50,433 bases of DNA, taken from positions 1 through 50,433 of the forward strand of contig CAKRIZ010000012.1 of assembly GCA_934351445.1 (NCBI GenBank), read 5' to 3'. This document shows, piece by piece, positions 9,467 to 42,360 of the stretch. Both the position numbers and the translations under genes were made by a program. The DNA comes from an uncultured Eubacterium sp. (GTDB lineage: Bacteria > Bacillota > Clostridia > Lachnospirales > Lachnospiraceae). The notes below the pieces were generated by a model, which saw nothing but the letters and a program-made list of their open reading frames with translations, was not told the origin of the DNA and did not search any database. Each line of letters opens with the position of its first letter. Position 1 is the first letter of the stretch.

Positions 9467-10317
9467 TAGATTGCTTTGCCGTCACAGCCACAGACTTTCA
9501 TACGGTTCTTTACCAGCTCTGTCACTGCTGTCATGCCTGCCTCACCGAACTTCTTCGGATCAAAGGTGTCCGGCTTTTCTTTATATAATGCCTTGCCGGC
9601 ATCCGTGTATGCCACACGCAGCTCTGTTGCAAAGTTTACCTTGCAGATTCCACGTTTTACGCAGTCCATCACATCCTCATCCGATAATCCGCTGGCTCCA
9701 TGAAGTACGAGCGGTACATCTACAACGTTACGGATCTCTGAGAGACGCTCTTTATCAAGTACCGGAGTACCTACATAGAAACCATGTGCAGTTCCGATCG
9801 CTACTGCGAGGGAATCAATGCCGGTCTTTTCTACAAACTCCTTTGCCTCCATCGGATCCGTATTCGTATCTGCAACAGCCTCGTGGTCATCCTCTTTGCC
9901 GCCGACCTTTCCGAGCTCTGCCTCTACCGGGATGTTGTTCGGATGGGCGACGGATACGACCCTGGCACTCACATCGATATTCTCTTCAAACGGAAGTTTT
10001 GATCCGTCGATCATCACGGAAGTATATCCCTCCTTGATGGCCTGTACAGCCAGTTCAAAGCTGCTGCCGTGATCTAAATGCAGACATACCGGCACGCTGG
10101 CACTTCTCGCTTCTGCTGCGACCATTCCGACAAACATCTCAAGGCTTGCATACTTTACCGTCGAAGGTGTCGTCTGGATCATGACCGGTGCCTTTAATTC
10201 CTCGGCAGCCTTAATGATTGCTTTCACCATCTCCATGTTCTCGGCATTAAATGCTCCGATTGCATATCCACCCTTCTGGGCATCCAGTAACATCTGTTTT
10301 GAAGTAACTAAAGGCAT
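9466..10317 (-). CDS. gatY: Class II ketose-bisphosphate aldolase, GatY/KbaY type (tagatose-1,6-bisphosphate aldolase)
   Basis: This zinc aldolase cleaves a ketose 1,6-bisphosphate to dihydroxyacetone phosphate and glyceraldehyde 3-phosphate. The catalytic aspartate and zinc histidine lie in HLDHGSS (D82, H83). Further zinc ligands are H178 (GTAHGF) and H206 (LHGASGL). The EAELGKVGGKEDD loop and the C-terminal CGCDGKA strongly recall GatY/KbaY, whose E. coli versions end CGCEG, and favour tagatose bisphosphate over fructose bisphosphate. Length (283) is normal for this subgroup. A GAGGAGG site precedes the start. It is the first gene of the operon. Confidence 0.88.
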   Translation of the reverse strand: MPLVTSKQMLLDAQKGGYAIGAFNAENMEMVKAIIKAAEELKAPVMIQTTPSTVKYASLEMFVGMVAAEARSASVPVCLHLDHGSSFELAVQAIKEGYTSVMIDGSKLPFEENIDVSARVVSVAHPNNIPVEAELGKVGGKEDDHEAVADTNTDPMEAKEFVEKTGIDSLAVAIGTAHGFYVGTPVLDKERLSEIRNVVDVPLVLHGASGLSDEDVMDCVKRGICKVNFATELRVAYTDAGKALYKEKPDTFDPKKFGEAGMTAVTELVKNRMKVCGCDGKAI

Positions 10318-34712: not shown

Positions 34713-35402
34713 CTATTCTGCCTGTGCAATCGGCGTGATCACAATATTTTCCGGTGCGACTTCCGTCTTGCGCGCGACAATATCCTCCACCTGCGCGCGT
34801 TTTGCATCCGTCACTTCACCCATATCCAGCACGACATCTGCACCACCATCCGAGCTCATACTGACAACGACATCTGTAAATCCTTTTGCCTCTAACAGCA
34901 TCTCTGCCGCTGCCTCTTTTTCCGCAATATCTGTCAGTGCGACCATTTTATCTACTGCATCCTGCTTCTGTGCCTCAGAGAGTGATTCACTGTCAATGAT
35001 CGCCAGCAGCCGCTCCTTATTTTCGGAACGCACCTGTTCACGGTTCATCTTCATCTCCACGGCAAAATTCACATTTTCCACCACTGCCCCGGTCAGTACC
35101 GTCTCACCCGGATGCTCCACACTGGTCTCCTCTGTCTGTGCACTCTCATCACCAGCCGCATCCGCGTTCCCATCCGCATCATTTTGTGCGGTATCCAATG
35201 CCGGATCTTCGGTATCCGTAAATATCTCATCACCAAGAAGTGCATCTTCCTCTGAGATATCATACGTTTCCTCCGCTACATCCTGACTCGTTGCTGCGGC
35301 CAGATCACCCTCATTTCCATATGTATAACTCACGTACCCTGCCGCAGCGATCATCAGTGCTAACGCCGTGATGATCATCTGATTCTTCTTAAAAATTTTC
35401 AT
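34713..35402 (-). CDS. spoIIIAH: Stage III sporulation protein AH
   Basis: SpoIIIAH lies in the outer forespore membrane and binds SpoIIQ across the intermembrane space, forming part of the feeding-tube channel. One N-terminal membrane helix (about 10-27) is followed by an acidic low-complexity linker and the C-terminal YscJ/FliF-like domain (about 105-229, with VEMKMNREQVRSENKERL). It overlaps spoIIIAG by 14 bases. AGGAGG lies before the start. As the last spoIIIA gene it is followed by the composite hairpin. Confidence 0.92.
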   Translation of the reverse strand: MKIFKKNQMIITALALMIAAAGYVSYTYGNEGDLAAATSQDVAEETYDISEEDALLGDEIFTDTEDPALDTAQNDADGNADAAGDESAQTEETSVEHPGETVLTGAVVENVNFAVEMKMNREQVRSENKERLLAIIDSESLSEAQKQDAVDKMVALTDIAEKEAAAEMLLEAKGFTDVVVSMSSDGGADVVLDMGEVTDAKRAQVEDIVARKTEVAPENIVITPIAQAE

Positions 35403-36024
35403 GCTCGCTAACCTCCTGCATCGACATCTTGACTATTGTAATCTTATGCGCCTCGAGCGGGAATAATGCCATGACACTCTGCAAAATATTCTGTTTCACC
35501 ATTGAATTGCCCCCACCCTGCGCGACAACGAGCACGCCCTCTACCTGTGGTGTGAGCTGGTTGGATACATAAGGAGTCTCTGCGCTGCCATTTTTCGTAT
35601 AGACAGTGTTCTCCGACGTATCCTCTGCACCTGCAGCTGCATCTGTATCTGATCTATCATCCACACGGCGCGCCGTGTCCTTTTCAACGACCTTTTCCCC
35701 ATGATCTTTGAGTGTGAGCATGACGCGCACACGCCCTGCCCCATCAATCAGCGACAATGTCTCCTCCAGCCGGTGCTCCAGATCCTCTGTAGCAGTCTGC
35801 ACCGCAGTATCAGGCGCAGCTTCTGTCTGATCTCCTGTAGCAGCCCGGTCTGCGGCCGCAGCATCTCCCGACAGATCACCCGGCGCATCCACCGTCTTTC
35901 CAGACGGCAGCGCGATCACCAATAGCAGCAGGCCGACAATGCCAATGATCAGCCAGGTATTTTTATCCTTATACTTTTCCCCATATTTCTCCTTCCAGTG
36001 ATCGATCCATTTTCCACCACTCAT
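35389..36024 (-). CDS. spoIIIAG: Stage III sporulation protein AG
   Basis: SpoIIIAG forms a large ring in the mother cell membrane. The protein has one N-terminal membrane helix (TWLIIGIVGLLLLVIAL), a low-complexity linker and a ring-building domain with RVRVMLTLKDHGEKVVEKD and VEGVLVVAQGGGN, both typical. I place the start at 36024 (MSGGKWIDHW), overlapping the AF stop by ATGA, giving 211 residues; the longer frame from 36066 lies inside spoIIIAF. Confidence 0.92.
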   Translation of the reverse strand: MSGGKWIDHWKEKYGEKYKDKNTWLIIGIVGLLLLVIALPSGKTVDAPGDLSGDAAAADRAATGDQTEAAPDTAVQTATEDLEHRLEETLSLIDGAGRVRVMLTLKDHGEKVVEKDTARRVDDRSDTDAAAGAEDTSENTVYTKNGSAETPYVSNQLTPQVEGVLVVAQGGGNSMVKQNILQSVMALFPLEAHKITIVKMSMQEVSEHENF

Positions 36025-36506
36025 TCCACCACTACCTGTCCTTTCTGTAATCCATATACTTCGCACAAATAGTCCCGCAGCACTTCACCGTCCCCTGTCA
36101 GTCCTTCCTGTATCCGCACCTGCTGCGGTTCATAATTATCATCCAGCGTCACCGTTATTTTCTTTATCTGCAGCAAATGCTCCCTGGCGAGTTCAGCAAA
36201 CTGTTCTTCCATTGCACGCCCATAATGCACACGGTACACCTGCTCCTGCGTCTGCTCCATATGTGAAAAATCGAGCTGTGCCTCCTCCATATCCTGCCTG
36301 AAATTCTCATAGGAGATGCCCTCCTTAAGTGCATCTGCCTGCCCGAACAGCCGGATAAGCGGAGCCATGACCGTGAGTGCAAATACAAGCCCCATGAAAA
36401 AACGGATAAATTTCTTATAAGCTTCACCTGCCGAAAAATACAAGACGATCATCATCAAAAAATACAAGATCAATACAGAGCGGATCCAATCTACGAATGT
36501 CTGCAT
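36021..36506 (-). CDS. spoIIIAF: Stage III sporulation protein AF
   Basis: The 161-residue protein has two N-terminal membrane helices (about 9-28 and 34-53) and a C-terminal cytosolic or intermembrane domain, matching SpoIIIAF in size, topology and position between AE and AG. It is part of the mother-cell-to-forespore channel; its exact job is unclear. Confidence 0.88.
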   Translation of the reverse strand: MQTFVDWIRSVLILYFLMMIVLYFSAGEAYKKFIRFFMGLVFALTVMAPLIRLFGQADALKEGISYENFRQDMEEAQLDFSHMEQTQEQVYRVHYGRAMEEQFAELAREHLLQIKKITVTLDDNYEPQQVRIQEGLTGDGEVLRDYLCEVYGLQKGQVVVE

Positions 36507-36561: not shown

Positions 36562-37854
36562 TCATACGCCCGCCCCGGTCGCCATGCACACGACCGTGAC
36601 CGACAAAAACAGCATCAGAATGGCAGTGACTACGAGCTTCGCGTAGAGCAATCCGGTCTTTGCCAGAGCATCGAGTACACCGGAAATCCGTTTATCTGTC
36701 ACCGGTTCCGATACAGCCGCCAGTATCCGGTAGACGAGTGTCAGCACGGCAATCTCCAACAGCGGCTTTGCACACAACAATACCAGCACAACCACCGCAG
36801 TCGCTCCCACGCTGTTCTTAATCAGAATACCGGTGCCCAGAAGGAGTTCGCTCACACTGTTCATAGCTCCGCCAAGACCCGGGATGACCCCGATCGTGCG
36901 TATTGCCGCACTCCTGCGCAGTTGATCGACCGCCGGGGCAATCAGCCCCTGGATCAGGTTCAGTCCCAGTACAAATGCTATCAGTATTTTCTGTGCACAG
37001 AGTACGCCGCTCTCCAGCAAATGTGCCATACTCGAAAAATGTTCTTCCTTCCATGTATAATTTGCAAACTGTGTCACTAAATAGATAAATACAAGCGGAA
37101 ACAACACTTTTTGCAGCAGATTCTGGACGAGATACAGCACAAGCAACAGGATCTCATAGGTCAGGCTCGCAGAATTGACACCGGATGAAAACACCATCGC
37201 CATACAAAACACCGGCTGGATGAGCATTGTAAACTCTGTGATCCGGTCCAGACAGCGATAGGTCACTTCCTGCATGGATGCAAATACGCGCAGGGCGTTG
37301 TATAAAAACAAAAAATAGACAGCCAAAAAACTCATGTCCGATAAAAACGCATTGGAAAAAATCCCGGTAATCCCCTGCAGCATCGCAAATGCCAATAACA
37401 GCACCAGCATCTGTACCAGATAGCCACGGTTCGTATGTACGACGCCAAAGCAATGATTGACCAGCCAGTTCCACACCGTCTGTCCGTCCGGTTTCGCGTC
37501 CCCATGCAACAGATTCTGCAACAATTGCAGAAAACTGATATCCATATCTGTCTCATCGCTCTGCTCCTGCAGGAAAGCATCCAGATCATCCGTCTGCAGT
37601 TCCCCCAGCAGATCATCCGTCAGCCCATCCGCCTGATCAATAGCCGCATCTCCTGCCAACGTTCCCGGCTCAGAACCAGTCTGTTCCGCTGCGATTCCGG
37701 TTTCCGTATTTAGGAACACCGGAATAATCATGGCAGTAATTATGCACATGCATAATTCAATGATAAATCGTGTTCTGTACCCGCATCGTTTCAGATGCCT
37801 TCCCTTGTCCGCAGCACGCCATTCCGATTTCACTTTTATTTTTTTATCTCTCAT
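36562..37854 (-). CDS. spoIIIAE: Stage III sporulation protein AE
   Basis: SpoIIIAE is the large polytopic membrane subunit of the SpoIIIA complex. The 430-residue protein has an N-terminal signal-like segment (about 28-50), a soluble acidic region and about eight membrane helices from residue 140 on. VIPGLGGAMNSVSELLLGTG and the C-terminal LAKTGLLYAKLVVTAILM are typical. Its start overlaps the spoIIIAD stop by ATGA. Confidence 0.95.
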   Translation of the reverse strand: MRDKKIKVKSEWRAADKGRHLKRCGYRTRFIIELCMCIITAMIIPVFLNTETGIAAEQTGSEPGTLAGDAAIDQADGLTDDLLGELQTDDLDAFLQEQSDETDMDISFLQLLQNLLHGDAKPDGQTVWNWLVNHCFGVVHTNRGYLVQMLVLLLAFAMLQGITGIFSNAFLSDMSFLAVYFLFLYNALRVFASMQEVTYRCLDRITEFTMLIQPVFCMAMVFSSGVNSASLTYEILLLVLYLVQNLLQKVLFPLVFIYLVTQFANYTWKEEHFSSMAHLLESGVLCAQKILIAFVLGLNLIQGLIAPAVDQLRRSAAIRTIGVIPGLGGAMNSVSELLLGTGILIKNSVGATAVVVLVLLCAKPLLEIAVLTLVYRILAAVSEPVTDKRISGVLDALAKTGLLYAKLVVTAILMLFLSVTVVCMATGAGV

Positions 37855-38237
37855 GTCACCACCGTGGCTATCAACTGCAAAAAGGCTTCAATCACCGGAA
37901 GCGCCAACAGCAGGATTGATATTTTAGAAAACATCTCGATCTGGGAGGCAATCGTTGCATAACCGGCATCCTTACACAGGCTGACTGCAAATTCTGCTAC
38001 ATAGGTGATGCCTATCATTTTTAAAATCGTGCGGAAATAGCCGACATCCAGCGTTGCCAGTTCGCGCAGTCTGCCAACAGATTCCAACAGGATCGAGAGT
38101 CTGCCCAGCACACTGAAAAAGATACAGACACAGACAACGATACTGATCAGGATACCGAATTCCGGCCGTTCTTTTTTTAATACGGTTGCAAGCAATACAC
38201 CGGCTACCGCCAGCAACGACATCTGTACTACATTCAT
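37851..38237 (-). CDS. spoIIIAD: Stage III sporulation protein AD
   Basis: The 128-residue, four-helix membrane protein matches SpoIIIAD in size and contains YFRTILKMIGITYVAEFAVSLCKDAGY, a characteristic segment. It overlaps spoIIIAE by four bases and follows spoIIIAC after nine bases. Confidence 0.94.
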   Translation of the reverse strand: MNVVQMSLLAVAGVLLATVLKKERPEFGILISIVVCVCIFFSVLGRLSILLESVGRLRELATLDVGYFRTILKMIGITYVAEFAVSLCKDAGYATIASQIEMFSKISILLLALPVIEAFLQLIATVVT

Positions 38238-38246
38238 ACACCCGCC

Positions 38247-38441
38247 TCACAGTTCAAATAATGTCTGCATTGTCACAAACAGCTCATAGATATATGGCAC
38301 GACCCACAGCAGTACGAGCACCAGCCCCGCCAGACTGATGAGAAACGCATGCTCCTCGCGCCCGCTGTGTTTGAGTACCTGTCCGAGAATCGTGACGAGA
38401 ATACCGACTGCTGCTATCTTGAATATCATATTTACACTCAT
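38247..38441 (-). CDS. spoIIIAC: Stage III sporulation protein AC
   Basis: The 64-residue protein has two membrane helices separated by a short polar loop (LKHSGREEHAFLI), the normal form of SpoIIIAC. It starts only 15 bases after the spoIIIAA stop, leaving no room for the spoIIIAB gene that is usually found here. Confidence 0.94.
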   Translation of the reverse strand: MSVNMIFKIAAVGILVTILGQVLKHSGREEHAFLISLAGLVLVLLWVVPYIYELFVTMQTLFEL

Positions 38442-38456
38442 ATATACCCCTTAGCC

Positions 38457-39410
38457 TCACTGTGTACCTGTAATCAGTTCCATACGGCTGTCATAGACAC
38501 GCATGCTGCGTTGTCCACGTACATCCTTTTCCAATACCACAAAACGACCGATCTCACCTTTTCCGCTCCAGTTAAAAAATCCACAGATGTGCTGCAGGCT
38601 CTCGACCGACTCACCATGCACCGTCCCGATCAGGCGGCAGCCACTGTGGAACGCACGTGTCACAGCCTCAAAATCATCCTTTGCCCCCAGCTCGTCAACC
38701 GCGATCACCTGCGGAGACATCGAGCGCAGCAGCATATAGATTCCCTCACTTTTACCGGCTCCCTCTAACACATCTGTGCGCGGTCCGAGATCGTTCTGCG
38801 GAACACCCAGATAACCGGCGCCCAGCTCCGAACGCTCGTCCACCACACCGACCTTCATACCCGCATGCGCAGTATCACCCTCTGACAGAATGCGGACCGC
38901 ATCCCTCAGATAGGTCGTCTTGCCAATACCCGGCGGGGATAAAATCAATGTATTATAGATCCCACACGCATCCCGCACCGCATTCACAAGCGCCTGTGCG
39001 CACCCCTTCCTCTCACGTGCAATCCGGATATTCAGAAAATAAATATGCTGCAGGCGCACAATATGCCCCTGTTGCAGCGCCACCTCTCCTGCCACACCGA
39101 CACGATGCCCCCCGCGCAAGGTCAGATAGCCCATGCGCAGTTGTTCCTCATAGGCATAGATCGAATAACTGCATAAAAAACTGACCATCTCCTCAAGATC
39201 CTCACTGCGCATCCGGTAGGCATCCTGCAGCCGTCCACTCAGCCTGCCGCCCTTTTCATCAAAAAAAATCTCCCGATCACCATATAGGAACATCAGTGGT
39301 TGTCCCACCCGCACACGGATCTCCTCCAATGTGCCCTGGTCGATATCTGCCTGCCGCAGTTTCTCACGCATATGTAATGGAAATAATCTGAGCAACTGTT
39401 CCTCCAACAT
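38457..39410 (-). CDS. spoIIIAA: Stage III sporulation protein AA (ATPase)
   Basis: SpoIIIAA is a secretion-type ATPase thought to power the SpoIIIA channel. Walker A SPPGIGKTTYLRD (about 158-170) and a Walker B region with IAVDELGAKDDFEA are present. The start at 39410 (MLEEQLLRL) follows GGGGGGA; the longer frame from 39437 lies in the palindromic leader. Length is 317 residues. It is separated from spoIIIAB by three unrelated genes or remnants. Confidence 0.95.
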   Translation of the reverse strand: MLEEQLLRLFPLHMREKLRQADIDQGTLEEIRVRVGQPLMFLYGDREIFFDEKGGRLSGRLQDAYRMRSEDLEEMVSFLCSYSIYAYEEQLRMGYLTLRGGHRVGVAGEVALQQGHIVRLQHIYFLNIRIARERKGCAQALVNAVRDACGIYNTLILSPPGIGKTTYLRDAVRILSEGDTAHAGMKVGVVDERSELGAGYLGVPQNDLGPRTDVLEGAGKSEGIYMLLRSMSPQVIAVDELGAKDDFEAVTRAFHSGCRLIGTVHGESVESLQHICGFFNWSGKGEIGRFVVLEKDVRGQRSMRVYDSRMELITGTQ

Positions 39411-39411
39411 A

Positions 39412-39460
39412 AAAATCCCCCCTTGTCCATACATCACTATATGAACAAGCGGGGGATTTT
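39412..39460 (-). promoter_or_regulatory. Palindromic leader copy A: possible sigma-E promoter and RBS of spoIIIAA
   Basis: About 50 bases form a near-perfect hairpin with arms AAAATCCCCC and GGGGGGATTTT. The same sequence recurs upstream of spoIIIAB (42074-42120). On the minus strand it reads TCATAAAA, 13 bases, CATATAGT, resembling sigma-E -35 and -10 boxes, and then the GGGGGGA ribosome site of spoIIIAA. It could also act as a terminator for the ATPase gene ending at 39465, or mask the ribosome site. Confidence 0.6.
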
Positions 39461-39464
39461 ATGA

Positions 39465-41063
39465 TTATTTTTTTAATTTTTCTATGACACATTGATGTTC
39501 TTTTGTCTTCCTGTCATAACTGATACCGATCAGTAAGATATTGCCCGTATAGGCTTCCAGCACAGATGGATATTTTTTCTCTTTGATCTGCATAAGCGCA
39601 GTCTGTGCATTTTGATTCCATTTTAATTCTATCAAAAGCGCCGGATAATCATCCACATACTCTGTTTTCGGAAGGAAAACAAAATCCGCAAATCCACGAC
39701 CGCTTGGCAATTCTCTGACTGGTTTGAAATAATACTGCATCGTACTCAGATACGCGATGGTCAACACACTGCTGAGCGAATTTTCATCATGATACTGGAT
39801 CACCGATGCATATTCTGCATGTATTTTCTCGATACCCACTGCAACCGCATGTGCATCCATATCTAATGTTGCATCCAGTAATGCCTCCGATTCTCGCTGA
39901 AAATCCAGTAGTTCATTCCACTTTTTCCTGCGGGTCGCCGCTGCGAATTCCTGCCGGATCTCCTCATTCGGAATAAAGGCGGTCTGATGCTTCTGATCAT
40001 ACGACAAATAGCCCAGATGGATCAGTAATGTCAATATGTCATCCTTGTCCGCAAAGCTGACCATGTCATTCTGAAAGGAGCTCACATATACCGGCACCTG
40101 CGCACCGGACAGCATCTCTATGATGGATGTCTTCAGACCATCAAAATCTCTGTTAATAAACGGAACGATCGTCTCATAAGTACCCGTCATAGACCAATAG
40201 CTCTGAAAATTCCCCTCCTGCATCAGACACACAACCGCGTTTGGATTATATACATAAAGATCACCAAGCCGGTAACCATCATACCATCGTTTCACTTCCC
40301 GGAAATCTTTCCGGTATTTTTGGCAGAGCACTTTTACTTCATCCTCCGTGAAGCCGATATACGGAGCCATCACTCCCGGACTCACCATCGTATATTGCGA
40401 AAAATTATTAAGCGCAGACTGGGTATGCACTTTTTTGATTGGTAAGATTCCAGTCAAATAAGCAAGCTGTATAAACTTTGTCGGCTCAGTACCTTTAAAC
40501 ATCCCCCGTAGAAAATTGATATACTCCTCCTGCACACCCTGACTAGCTTCCTCATCACGAATCAACGCATCCCACTCATCTATAATTACAATAAACTTTG
40601 TTCCTGTAGCTGCATGAATGCAGGACATCGCTCCATATGCAGTCTGTGTATCATCCGGGATGTCTGACGGATACAGTTCCTTCAATTCCTTAATCATCTG
40701 ATCATTGATATACGCAACGGTCTGCTCTGCTCCCTCAGCGTCCATACAACACCACTGTACATCAAAATGAATCACATCATACCGATTCAGGTTCTTTTCA
40801 AACGAAGCATCCGCACTGATCTCCAGACCGGAAAACAATTCTATCGAATCACAGCCTTTGCTATAATAGGCAGTCAGCATGTCTGCTGTGATCGATTTTC
40901 CAAAGCGGCGCGGCCTGCTGTTGCAGATCAGTGCCTGTTTTGTATTCATAACCTTGTTCGTATATGCGATCAGCCCTGTTTTATCCACATATATCTCAGA
41001 ATTCAAAGCGACCTGAAATGCACTGTTATCCGGATTGACAAATCTACCCATTCGATGCTTCAC
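39465..41063 (-). CDS. AAA-ATPase with C-terminal PD-(D/E)XK nuclease domain (DUF1703 family)
   Basis: The 532-residue protein has an N-terminal AAA-ATPase domain with a P-loop variant (NSRPRRFGKSI, about 48-58) and Walker B (IVIIDEWDAL). A C-terminal PD-(D/E)XK-like domain has FADFVFLP and LIELKWN (E-x-K) near 465-490. Such genes occur in many paralogous copies in gut Clostridia and Bacteroides; a role in mobile-element biology or defence is suspected, not shown. It interrupts the spoIIIA locus and sits directly behind a truncated HEPN gene. AAGGAG precedes its start. Confidence 0.9.
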   Translation of the reverse strand: MKHRMGRFVNPDNSAFQVALNSEIYVDKTGLIAYTNKVMNTKQALICNSRPRRFGKSITADMLTAYYSKGCDSIELFSGLEISADASFEKNLNRYDVIHFDVQWCCMDAEGAEQTVAYINDQMIKELKELYPSDIPDDTQTAYGAMSCIHAATGTKFIVIIDEWDALIRDEEASQGVQEEYINFLRGMFKGTEPTKFIQLAYLTGILPIKKVHTQSALNNFSQYTMVSPGVMAPYIGFTEDEVKVLCQKYRKDFREVKRWYDGYRLGDLYVYNPNAVVCLMQEGNFQSYWSMTGTYETIVPFINRDFDGLKTSIIEMLSGAQVPVYVSSFQNDMVSFADKDDILTLLIHLGYLSYDQKHQTAFIPNEEIRQEFAAATRRKKWNELLDFQRESEALLDATLDMDAHAVAVGIEKIHAEYASVIQYHDENSLSSVLTIAYLSTMQYYFKPVRELPSGRGFADFVFLPKTEYVDDYPALLIELKWNQNAQTALMQIKEKKYPSVLEAYTGNILLIGISYDRKTKEHQCVIEKLKK

Positions 41064-41086
41064 TCCTTCTTTTCCGGTTCTAGGAT

Positions 41087-41218
41087 TTATTTTGCAAAAA
41101 AATCCGCTTGTTTTCCATCACCGTCATAATCATCTGCCGGATTCGCCGTCAGACTTTTTTTCAGATTATCCAGACACTTACAATATGAATGATAGCGGTT
41201 AATAAATTTGTTTTCCAT
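41087..41218 (-). pseudogene. Truncated HEPN (HI0074-family nucleotidyltransferase-substrate-binding) gene
   Basis: A 43-codon frame begins at ATG 41218 inside the end of the MNT gene, in another frame, with GGAGG about eleven bases upstream. Its first 31 residues (MENKFINRYHSYCK..., DNLKKSLTANPADDY) look like the N-terminus of HI0074-family HEPN proteins, which are about 130-145 residues and pair with MNT. After DDY the frame runs into unrelated sequence (DGDGKQADFFAK) and a stop. About two thirds of the gene are missing, and the ATPase gene begins 23 bases further on. I infer a deletion or insertion that removed the HEPN body. Confidence 0.75.
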
Positions 41219-41480
41219 ATTTATCGATATCCTCCAGCAAATATTTATTTAAGATATGATCATATTCAAACAGATCTATTTTTCTCAGAGTCTCAATCGT
41301 TGCGATATCATCCTCCAGCCGCATCATATCTGCACACCCATACACGACAAAATCGATATCACTGGTCGGCAATGCTGTTCCTGTAGCAAATGATCCAAAC
41401 AGCGATAAATGCTGTACCTGATTCTTTTTGCATATATCTGTGACTCTCTGTATGATCTCATCAATCGGCATGGTATCCAT
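41199..41480 (-). CDS. MNT-type minimal nucleotidyltransferase, partner of a lost HEPN
   Basis: The 93-residue protein has the MNT active-site pattern GSFATGTALPTSDIDFVV (G-S then D-x-D), like the small nucleotidyltransferases of HEPN/MNT toxin-antitoxin pairs, which AMPylate and silence their HEPN RNase. It is full length for the family and has AGGAG before its start. Its HEPN partner is reduced to a fragment overlapping its 3' end. It lies between spoIIIAB and the AAA-ATPase gene. Confidence 0.88.
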   Translation of the reverse strand: MDTMPIDEIIQRVTDICKKNQVQHLSLFGSFATGTALPTSDIDFVVYGCADMMRLEDDIATIETLRKIDLFEYDHILNKYLLEDIDKYGKQIY

Positions 41481-41551
41481 GTATTTCGCTCCTATCCGCT
41501 TATGTTATACGTGATTAGTATACTTCATCCGGCTCAAACCTGCAACGATTT

Positions 41552-42073
41552 TCAGAGCAGGAGTATAATCACAAAGATTCCTGCCAGCATCGTTCCGTAA
41601 CGGTTTAGCCTGCGCCTGCTCACAAGGCTCAGTTCATAATCCTTCGTCAGCCCCGCCAGCCGCTTCTGATAGGCTGCAAATAATTCCACCTTCAGTTCGA
41701 CATGATCCATCCGCAGTACCTCTCCGATCTCCGATAATAGCTGCAACTGCGCATCGTCCAATAAAAACAAATTCCGATCCGCCTCGGTCTGTGTCCGCCA
41801 AATTGCCGATACATCACCGCTATCCTGCCGGATCAGCTTTTCCTGTACATGTTCGCATAATTCCCGGTAGGGATGTCCCACATTTGCTGCGCAATGCTCC
41901 AGCACAACCGACAACGGAAACCGCAGCCGGCATATCTCATTCTGCAACAGTGTCAGAAAAAATGCGAGCTCGTCCAACTGTCTTTTGTGCTCTGCGAACT
42001 CCCACTCTTTGGATAATACAAAACCGGTACATGATAGCAGGATACATCCTGCTCCCAGCAACTTTAAAGCCAC
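41552..42073 (-). CDS. spoIIIAB: Stage III sporulation protein AB, displaced from its usual position
   Basis: The protein has one N-terminal membrane helix (LKLLGAGCILLSCTGFVL), a helical soluble domain (FLTLLQNEICRLRFPLS.V) and a C-terminal helix (YGTMLAGIFVIILLL), the form of SpoIIIAB, an inner channel component resembling GspF fragments. The GTG at 42073 follows the GGGGGGA site and yields 173 residues beginning (V/M)ALKLLGAG, as in B. subtilis. It lies upstream of spoIIIAA rather than between AA and AC, with MNT, HEPN remnant and AAA-ATPase genes between. Confidence 0.88.
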   Translation of the reverse strand: MALKLLGAGCILLSCTGFVLSKEWEFAEHKRQLDELAFFLTLLQNEICRLRFPLSVVLEHCAANVGHPYRELCEHVQEKLIRQDSGDVSAIWRTQTEADRNLFLLDDAQLQLLSEIGEVLRMDHVELKVELFAAYQKRLAGLTKDYELSLVSRRRLNRYGTMLAGIFVIILLL

Positions 42074-42120
42074 AAAATCCCCCCTGTCCATATATCACTA
42101 TATGAACGAGAGGGGATTTT
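42074..42120 (-). promoter_or_regulatory. Palindromic leader copy B: possible sigma-E promoter and RBS of spoIIIAB
   Basis: This is the second copy of the leader at 39412-39460, about 90 percent identical. On the minus strand it reads ACATAAAA, 13 bases, CATATAGT (sigma-E-like) and then GGGGGGATTTT directly before the GTG of spoIIIAB. The arms pair into a long hairpin. Because it is palindromic, the plus strand also shows a GGGGATTTTTATG arrangement leading into a short frame at 42122-42265. Confidence 0.6.
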
Positions 42121-42360
42121 TATGTCTGATCTATTTACTTTTGAATTCAAAGCTTCATTGATCATCTGTAAGACAGACCCTGCAAAGTCCATGCTATTGC
42201 ATACAAAGCAGTTCAACCTTGCCCTTTACCAAGATGAGCTCAGTCGATTATCTGCTCGGACGCACTAATGTAAAACAGATGAATAAAGAGTCCTGATCCG
42301 TGAAAGTCCGCTTACCGGCAACTTCTGGCGTCTTTCAAATATATCGCAGGCATACAAAAA
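42121..42360. other. Intergenic stretch between the spoIIIAB leader and the rpsU terminator
   Basis: No recognisable gene is present. A 47-codon frame on the plus strand (42122-42265, MSDLFTFEFKASL...) has an RBS-like AGGGG that belongs to the palindrome. A minus-strand frame (42064-42192, MDFAGSVLQMINEALNSK...) runs into spoIIIAB without a ribosome site. Either could be a decayed gene; I recognise neither. Confidence 0.4.

Follow-up and report, generated by a model that had tools for sequence, protein, structure and literature searches.

spoIIIAB upstream of spoIIIAA with a spoIIIA leader copy of its own: a gene order probably due to duplication and complementary loss

The window, by which we mean the whole stretch of 50,433 bp that was analysed, carries a complete spoIIIA set, with all eight genes from AA to AH present. 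Read along the minus strand, the order is alaS, rpsU (the identities of both are supported by Pfam), AB, an MNT-type nucleotidyltransferase gene, a 43-aa open reading frame, a nuclease gene, AA and then AC to AH. The features of the locus are as follows.

42074..42126, minus strand: leader copy before AB, with ACATAAA, 14 nt, CATATAGT (42097-42104), a palindrome and a ribosome-binding site
41552..42073, minus strand: spoIIIAB, relocated (PF09548, 5.9e-28), with a GTG start at 42071-42073 and a TGA stop
41199..41480, minus strand: MNT-type nucleotidyltransferase gene, MntA-like antitoxin (PF18765, 1.4e-13; PF01909, 4.6e-11)
41086..41218, minus strand: 43-aa open reading frame without a domain match, called a "HEPN remnant" in the preliminary description
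39465..41063, minus strand: AAA-ATPase_like/PDDEXK_9 gene, the nuclease gene (PF09820, 9.8e-28; PF08011, 2.1e-8)
39411..39464, minus strand: leader before AA, with TCATAAA, 14 nt, CATATAGT (39436-39443), a palindrome and a ribosome-binding site
38457..39410, minus strand: spoIIIAA (PF19568, 7.6e-96), with an ATG start and a TGA stop
38442..38456, minus strand: the 15-nt gap between AA and AC, reading GTG AGG CTA AGG together with the end of AA (compare ATG AGG CTG AAG at the AB start of the relative L003)
38247..38441, minus strand: spoIIIAC (TIGR02848, 7.3e-22)
37851..38237, minus strand: spoIIIAD (PF06686, 9.8e-29; TIGR02849)
36562..37854, minus strand: spoIIIAE (PF09546, 4.6e-83)
36021..36506, minus strand: spoIIIAF (PF09581, 1.3e-18)
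35389..36066, minus strand: spoIIIAG (NCBIfam TIGR02830, 1.7e-29; at 102.6 bits below the curated cut-off of 147.7), without a match in the Pfam scan
34713..35402, minus strand: spoIIIAH (PF12685, 1.7e-56)

The preliminary description of this DNA had placed AA and AC 15 bases apart with no AB in between and a full AB 2.1 kb upstream of AA, and domain scans and coordinates bear out both statements: 15 nt separate the stop of AA from the start of AC, and the start of AA follows the stop of AB after 2141 nt. The match of AB to PF09548 is full length (profile positions 1-170 of 170; 98.4 bits vs a curated cut-off of 32.5), and its score for the NCBIfam equivalog TIGR02833 is below the cut-off (50.2 vs 146.5). 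The place between AA and AC, which AB does not occupy here, is a habit of the SpoIIIAB family and stands outside the definition of the protein. A tblastn search of the 50-kb window found no second AB or AA, and Rfam gave 0 matches at gathering score over the window. Among viral contigs, AB had no relative. As to the genes between AB and AA, Pfam confirmed the MNT gene and the AAA-ATPase/nuclease gene of the preliminary description, but for the supposed HEPN remnant (41086-41218) Pfam returned nothing at E values of 1 or less. The MNT gene itself lies below the NCBIfam cut-off (NF047752, 34.4 bits vs 60).

The gene order of the window is derived, because AA and AB are adjacent in nearly all genomes scored in the genus, the family and the class. 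Seven relatives found by an AA scan of genome contigs (L001 to L007; 76-84% identical) all have AA-AB-AC-AD-AE in order, and in the genus of L001, AB comes directly after AA in 10 of 10 genomes. In the family survey (397 genomes, 258 of them with an AB match), the 115 genomes present in both match listings of 150 matches each were scored; among the matches listed, AA and AB are adjacent in 114, and the remaining one is broken by a contig end. Both genes were found in 91 of the 128 genomes of the class survey, and 88 of these 91 have them side by side. The exceptions are G513, where a contig end truncates AA, and G526 and G580, where AA lies on another contig. The conservation of the AA-AB order that the preliminary description had stated is therefore borne out, and the comparison of the locus across related genomes that it had proposed as a check did not turn up the same order in many relatives; an ancestral order is rejected by all three surveys. 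Among the genomes surveyed, a move of AB alone, with AA next to AC, is seen only in this window.

A few genomes with unusual matches deserve mention. In G526 and G580 (L049 to L052; 2 of 91 class genomes), spoIIIAA stands apart from AB-AC-AD-AE, so the operon can split; these two were rejected as further moves of AB, as it is AA that moved and AB-AC-AD-AE stay together. Multiple AB matches in family genomes were likewise dismissed: in G108 the gene is split over two contigs, in G328 it is frame-broken and in G292 the additional matches score below the cut-off. In G603, a partial AB lies at the start of a contig and AA gave no match at 1e-20; in G487, the second AB is on a contig of 3.7 kb, where it stands between an AA fragment and an AC. 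In G534, a second AB-like gene (L053, 4184-4696, minus strand; contig C90) lies on another contig than the canonical operon and adjoins a small open reading frame that is AC-like by eye.

Both AB and AA are preceded by the same leader. A direct repeat of 69 nt (77% identical) precedes AA (39413-39481) and AB (42074-42142), and the 53-nt leader cores align at a score of 36, compared with a mean of -5.3 (standard deviation 3.5, maximum 8) in 1000 shuffles; the similarity of the two leaders is beyond chance. The leader is composed of TCATAAA or a similar sequence, 14 nt, CATATAGT, ATGGACA(A)GGGGG and a T run, which the start codon follows. In L001 to L007, the same leader sequence is found immediately 5' of AA, and the promoter form with the 14-nt spacing is shared by both window leaders and by all 10 genomes of the genus, there before AA. 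Nine of these ten promoters have CATATAGT and that of L034 has CATACATT, which we take to fit the sigma-E -10 consensus; in L033 the promoter is 69 nt from AA. By eye, the left arm of the leader mirrors the ribosome-binding site in L001 to L007 and in both window copies, and the palindrome of L032 and L034 is poor or missing. The 50,433-bp window contains CATATAGT twice, each time at a leader.

Both window leaders have the ATA-type -35, the fixed spacing and the CATA-type -10 by which a sigma-E promoter is predicted. Furthermore, the AA leader contains GGACAAG, which presumably resembles a SpoIIID site, and the AB leader contains GGACAGG. Sigma-E dependence and SpoIIID repression of spoIIIA are reported for B. 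subtilis and C. difficile (PMC517825, PMC3789822): the sigma-E promoters of C. difficile carry ATA as their -35 motif, and its spoIIIA depends on sigma-E and is repressed by SpoIIID (PMC3789822), and in B. subtilis the -35 element of spoIIIAA is covered by SpoIIID (PMC517825). The leader thus fits a sigma-E-type promoter, given the ATA -35 motif of the C. difficile promoters and the sigma-E dependence of spoIIIA there, and transcription of AB by sigma-E may be expected from it. That the leader resembles such a promoter is a point that the preliminary description did not contain. Divergent from the palindromic AB leader is an open reading frame of 47 residues (42122-42265, plus strand) with a purine-rich site, for which Pfam gave no match at E up to 1.

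Where does the leader of AB come from? Aligned with the AA leader of the window, it scores 36, and with those of eight relatives (L033 and L034 not among them) 13.5-30.5. Moreover, GTTCATATAG is common to the two window copies and absent in the eight relatives compared. The GTG start of AB occupies the position that the ATG of AA has in the other leader, and the stop codon of the nuclease gene directly abuts the -35 element of the AA leader. The second junction lies between AA and AC. In L001 to L005, the stop of AA overlaps the start of AB (TATGAG, give or take a base), and in the window the stop of AA is followed by GGCTAAGGGG, so that GTG AGG CTA AGG reads M-R-L-R; 27 of 59 AB proteins outside the clade of the window AB start with M-R-L-K. 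The gap between AA and AC may therefore keep what looks like the first four codons of AB, which is suggestive and not proof, because just 8 nt can be compared beyond the stop, 6 of them equal in L003. This putative scar falls on the place required for the ribosome-binding site of AC.

The best explanation, and in our view probably the correct one, is that a leader-AA-AB segment was duplicated and complementarily reduced, with AB working under its own sigma-E promoter. According to this model, the segment at the head of the spoIIIA operon would have been doubled. The upstream copy would have lost AA exactly between leader and AB, whereby AB would start at the place of the AA start codon and use the ribosome-binding site of AA; the downstream copy would have lost AB except for about four codons left between AA and AC. 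The mother cell would then produce AB from a separate sigma-E promoter, 2.1 kb upstream of the remaining genes, and AB would still take its usual part in a working SpoIIIA-SpoIIQ channel. Duplication and loss is the best-supported route because both genes carry the same leader, which belongs to AA in the relatives, because the AB leader is closest to the AA leader of its own genome and because the gap between AA and AC keeps a scar resembling the AB start. This is what remains of the postulated doubled segment: two leaders, one AA, one AB and a short AB-like scar. The duplication and complementary loss put forward in the preliminary description are hence well supported but not proven; the doubled leader, the match to the genome's own leader and the scar speak for them, but a duplicated intermediate was not found in any genome surveyed. 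Which copy is where is suggested by two genomes: in L034 (G009), about 100 nt separate the coding end of rpsU from the AA leader, in L007 rpsU lies 1.3 kb before AA, and in the window it is the AB leader that adjoins rpsU. Leader-AB may therefore stand at the old head of the operon, with leader-AA as the downstream copy.

It is also imaginable that AB alone was set behind a separately duplicated leader by cut-and-paste or recombination and that a double AA-AB never existed. Indeed, only the leader is doubled now, AA and AB are single and the search for traces of a second AA gave none. However, such a path requires, besides the move itself, that the leader was copied separately and joined to AB precisely, and the AB-start-like scar after AA fits a simple deletion of AB from one of two copies; we regard a move of AB alone as unlikely.

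The AB proteins of other organisms suggest that the joining of leader and AB may be old. A protein search with AB gave 67 hits, and in a tree of 72 rows (three partial hits were left out) the window AB and the 12 nearest clusters (64-99% identity) form one clade with a support of 100/100. Four of these 12 clusters, P0001 (99% identical to the window AB, not identical; 47 member sequences), P0003 (83%) and P0007 and P0008 (70%), have N-terminal residues encoded by the leader; their N-termini MDRGDFV, MDRGDFL and MIYGQGGIF match the leader read through. Such N-termini are found in 0 of the 59 other AB hits, and the remaining 8 clade clusters start at AB itself and are silent on what precedes it. 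With leader-encoded residues in 4 of the 12 nearest clusters and in 0 of 59 others, the leader-AB arrangement appears not to be confined to one assembly, which the preliminary description could not have told from this sequence. Because these N-termini are found in AB clusters down to about 70% identity, the fusion of leader and AB would be at least as old as the split of AB proteins that are about 70% identical, or would have arisen twice. The join differs by one codon between sub-clades (MALK or LTLK vs MLK or LLK), and two captures could account for this. Taken together, the proteins suggest that the capture of AB by the operon promoter is old and common to several species, in which AB may also be separated from AA.

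The AA proteins point in the same direction. In the AA tree, the window, P0068 to P0075 and P0091 form one clade (100/97; P0109 and P0111 were left out). All nine hits of this clade end in Q, and 30 of 44 hits end in L, an end that is dictated in L001 to L007 by the overlap with the AB start. The AA tail of the window recurs in P0068, which has 46 members. An error in assembly, to which one might ascribe the unusual order, is unlikely, indeed very unlikely: the junction of AA and AC is known from this window alone, but leader-fused AB occurs in the other clusters named above, the AA tail recurs and the join of AA and AC disrupts no gene and provides a ribosome-binding site in a good position. 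Quite improbable, too, is a capture of the promoter in place, in which the other clade members would have a leader inserted between AA and AB (AA-leader-AB-AC) and the relocation in the window would be a later, local step. In favor of it, the leader-encoded N-termini tell that AB follows a leader and not where AA is. However, the AB leader of the window has rpsU upstream of it and not AA, and the AA proteins of the clade have lost the tail by which AA normally overlaps the start of AB, even if one protein from outside the clade, P0090, likewise ends in Q. As a minor observation, P0002 looks like a mosaic, either from recombination between two AB types or from a mixed assembly: its N-terminal third is like an MLK-type AB (P0010) and the rest is nearly the window AB.

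The relocated AB looks maintained, with no decay specific to AB. In 56 AB sequences outside the clade, 74 columns show a conservation of at least 95%; the window AB and P0001 keep 63 of these, fewer than the 11 other clade members, which keep 64 to 69. The dN/dS of AB (NG86) is 0.12-0.19 against three relatives, at a dS of 1.6-2.7, which is near saturation. Its stem in the tree is long (0.59), and an acceleration of AB after the move was considered and dropped, as the ratio of dN between the window and L001 to dN between L001 and L005 puts AB (2.4x) with AD (2.4x) and AA (2.2x); AE, AF and AC have 1.9x, 1.7x and 1.5x. The same data bear on a foreign AB from another genus that landed upstream and replaced the native gene. 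AB is more diverged than AA (55-62% vs 80-83% identity to L001 to L005), which together with the long stem would speak for a foreign gene, but AE (62-64%) and AF (55-65%) are about equally diverged, the dN ratio of AB is similar to those of AA and AD, the AB and AA trees both put the window clade beside the same relatives and the leader is the native one; a foreign origin is thus hardly credible. A simple scan found no terminator-like site on the minus strand between AB and the MNT gene, and therefore, read-through from AB into the MNT gene might be possible.

Spore formers are held to be recognisable by the order of their spoIIIA genes, and AB has left this order here without being lost. Gene order has been used to find spoIIIA orthologues (PMC7924749), and an annotation based on it would miss the relocated AB. 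The operons of B. subtilis and C. difficile resemble that of the window in having all eight genes and a sigma-E-like promoter at the head, and the window differs in that AB is alone upstream of AA, behind a second leader copy. The split spoIIIA of the clostridial genomes G526 and G580 also has one gene apart from the rest, but there it is AA that left, and AB-AC-AD-AE are together. Tandem duplication with differential loss is a known route of gene-order change. The window resembles it in the complementary single copies after a doubled regulatory segment and differs in that no intermediate is observed. The locus offers a natural test of whether AB has to be produced beside the ATPase AA or whether production in one cell, controlled by one sigma factor, is enough. 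Furthermore, a doubled promoter and a small scar may here still record how an operon was rearranged. In the literature searched, which was part of what is in print, no earlier report of a moved spoIIIAB was found.

The preliminary description also had selfish genes settling between AB and AA, which is partly supported. MNT and nuclease genes are indeed present, but the HEPN gene is unsupported and the nuclease gene probably stood upstream of spoIIIA already; it need not have settled later, because its nearest homologue (86%) precedes the canonical AA-AB-AC operon in L001. The next best homologue among the 10 genus genomes (70%) lies elsewhere in the same genome. The G+C content of the nuclease and MNT stretch is 0.39-0.46 and that of AA 0.48-0.56. 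MntA/HepT type VII toxin-antitoxin systems are comparable in the presence of an MNT gene, but the one in the window is below the MntA cut-off, and no HEPN partner was found with Pfam.

The upstream side of spoIIIA is highly variable, with the nuclease homologue in L001, a PDDEXK_9 remnant in L005 and RelB and PIN genes in L002. L002 gives a clear case of an insertion with a long target duplication at the spoIIIA locus: just upstream of spoIIIA, two direct copies of 459 bp (486-944 and 1842-2300; 90% identical) of the end of the neighbouring gene enclose genes for RelB (1094-1399) and for a PIN-domain protein (1396-1827). Such insertions were reportedly described by Nobusato et al. in 2000, a study cited in PMC3874152. 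The window is similar in that selfish genes lie between two copies of a host segment, as they do in L002 at the same locus, but the window copies are reduced to complementary halves, the insert may predate the duplication and the segment found on both sides is the leader only, compared with 459 bp in L002. For the window, such an insertion as the cause is a hypothesis, and it stays one because the nuclease gene may have been in place before AB moved. We would go one step further only tentatively, and with more doubt than belief: gut Lachnospiraceae of this clade may share a rewired SpoIIIA channel, in which AB, behind a duplicate of the operon promoter, would be an independent sigma-E unit with its own timing and dose, born of a selfish module that inserted at a hot spot upstream of spoIIIA and doubled the head of the operon, after which AA and AB were lost reciprocally. 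In L005, the PDDEXK_9 remnant (9644-9910, plus strand; 5.6e-6) directly precedes the spoIIIA leader, a position suggesting that this nuclease family has visited spoIIIA more than once.
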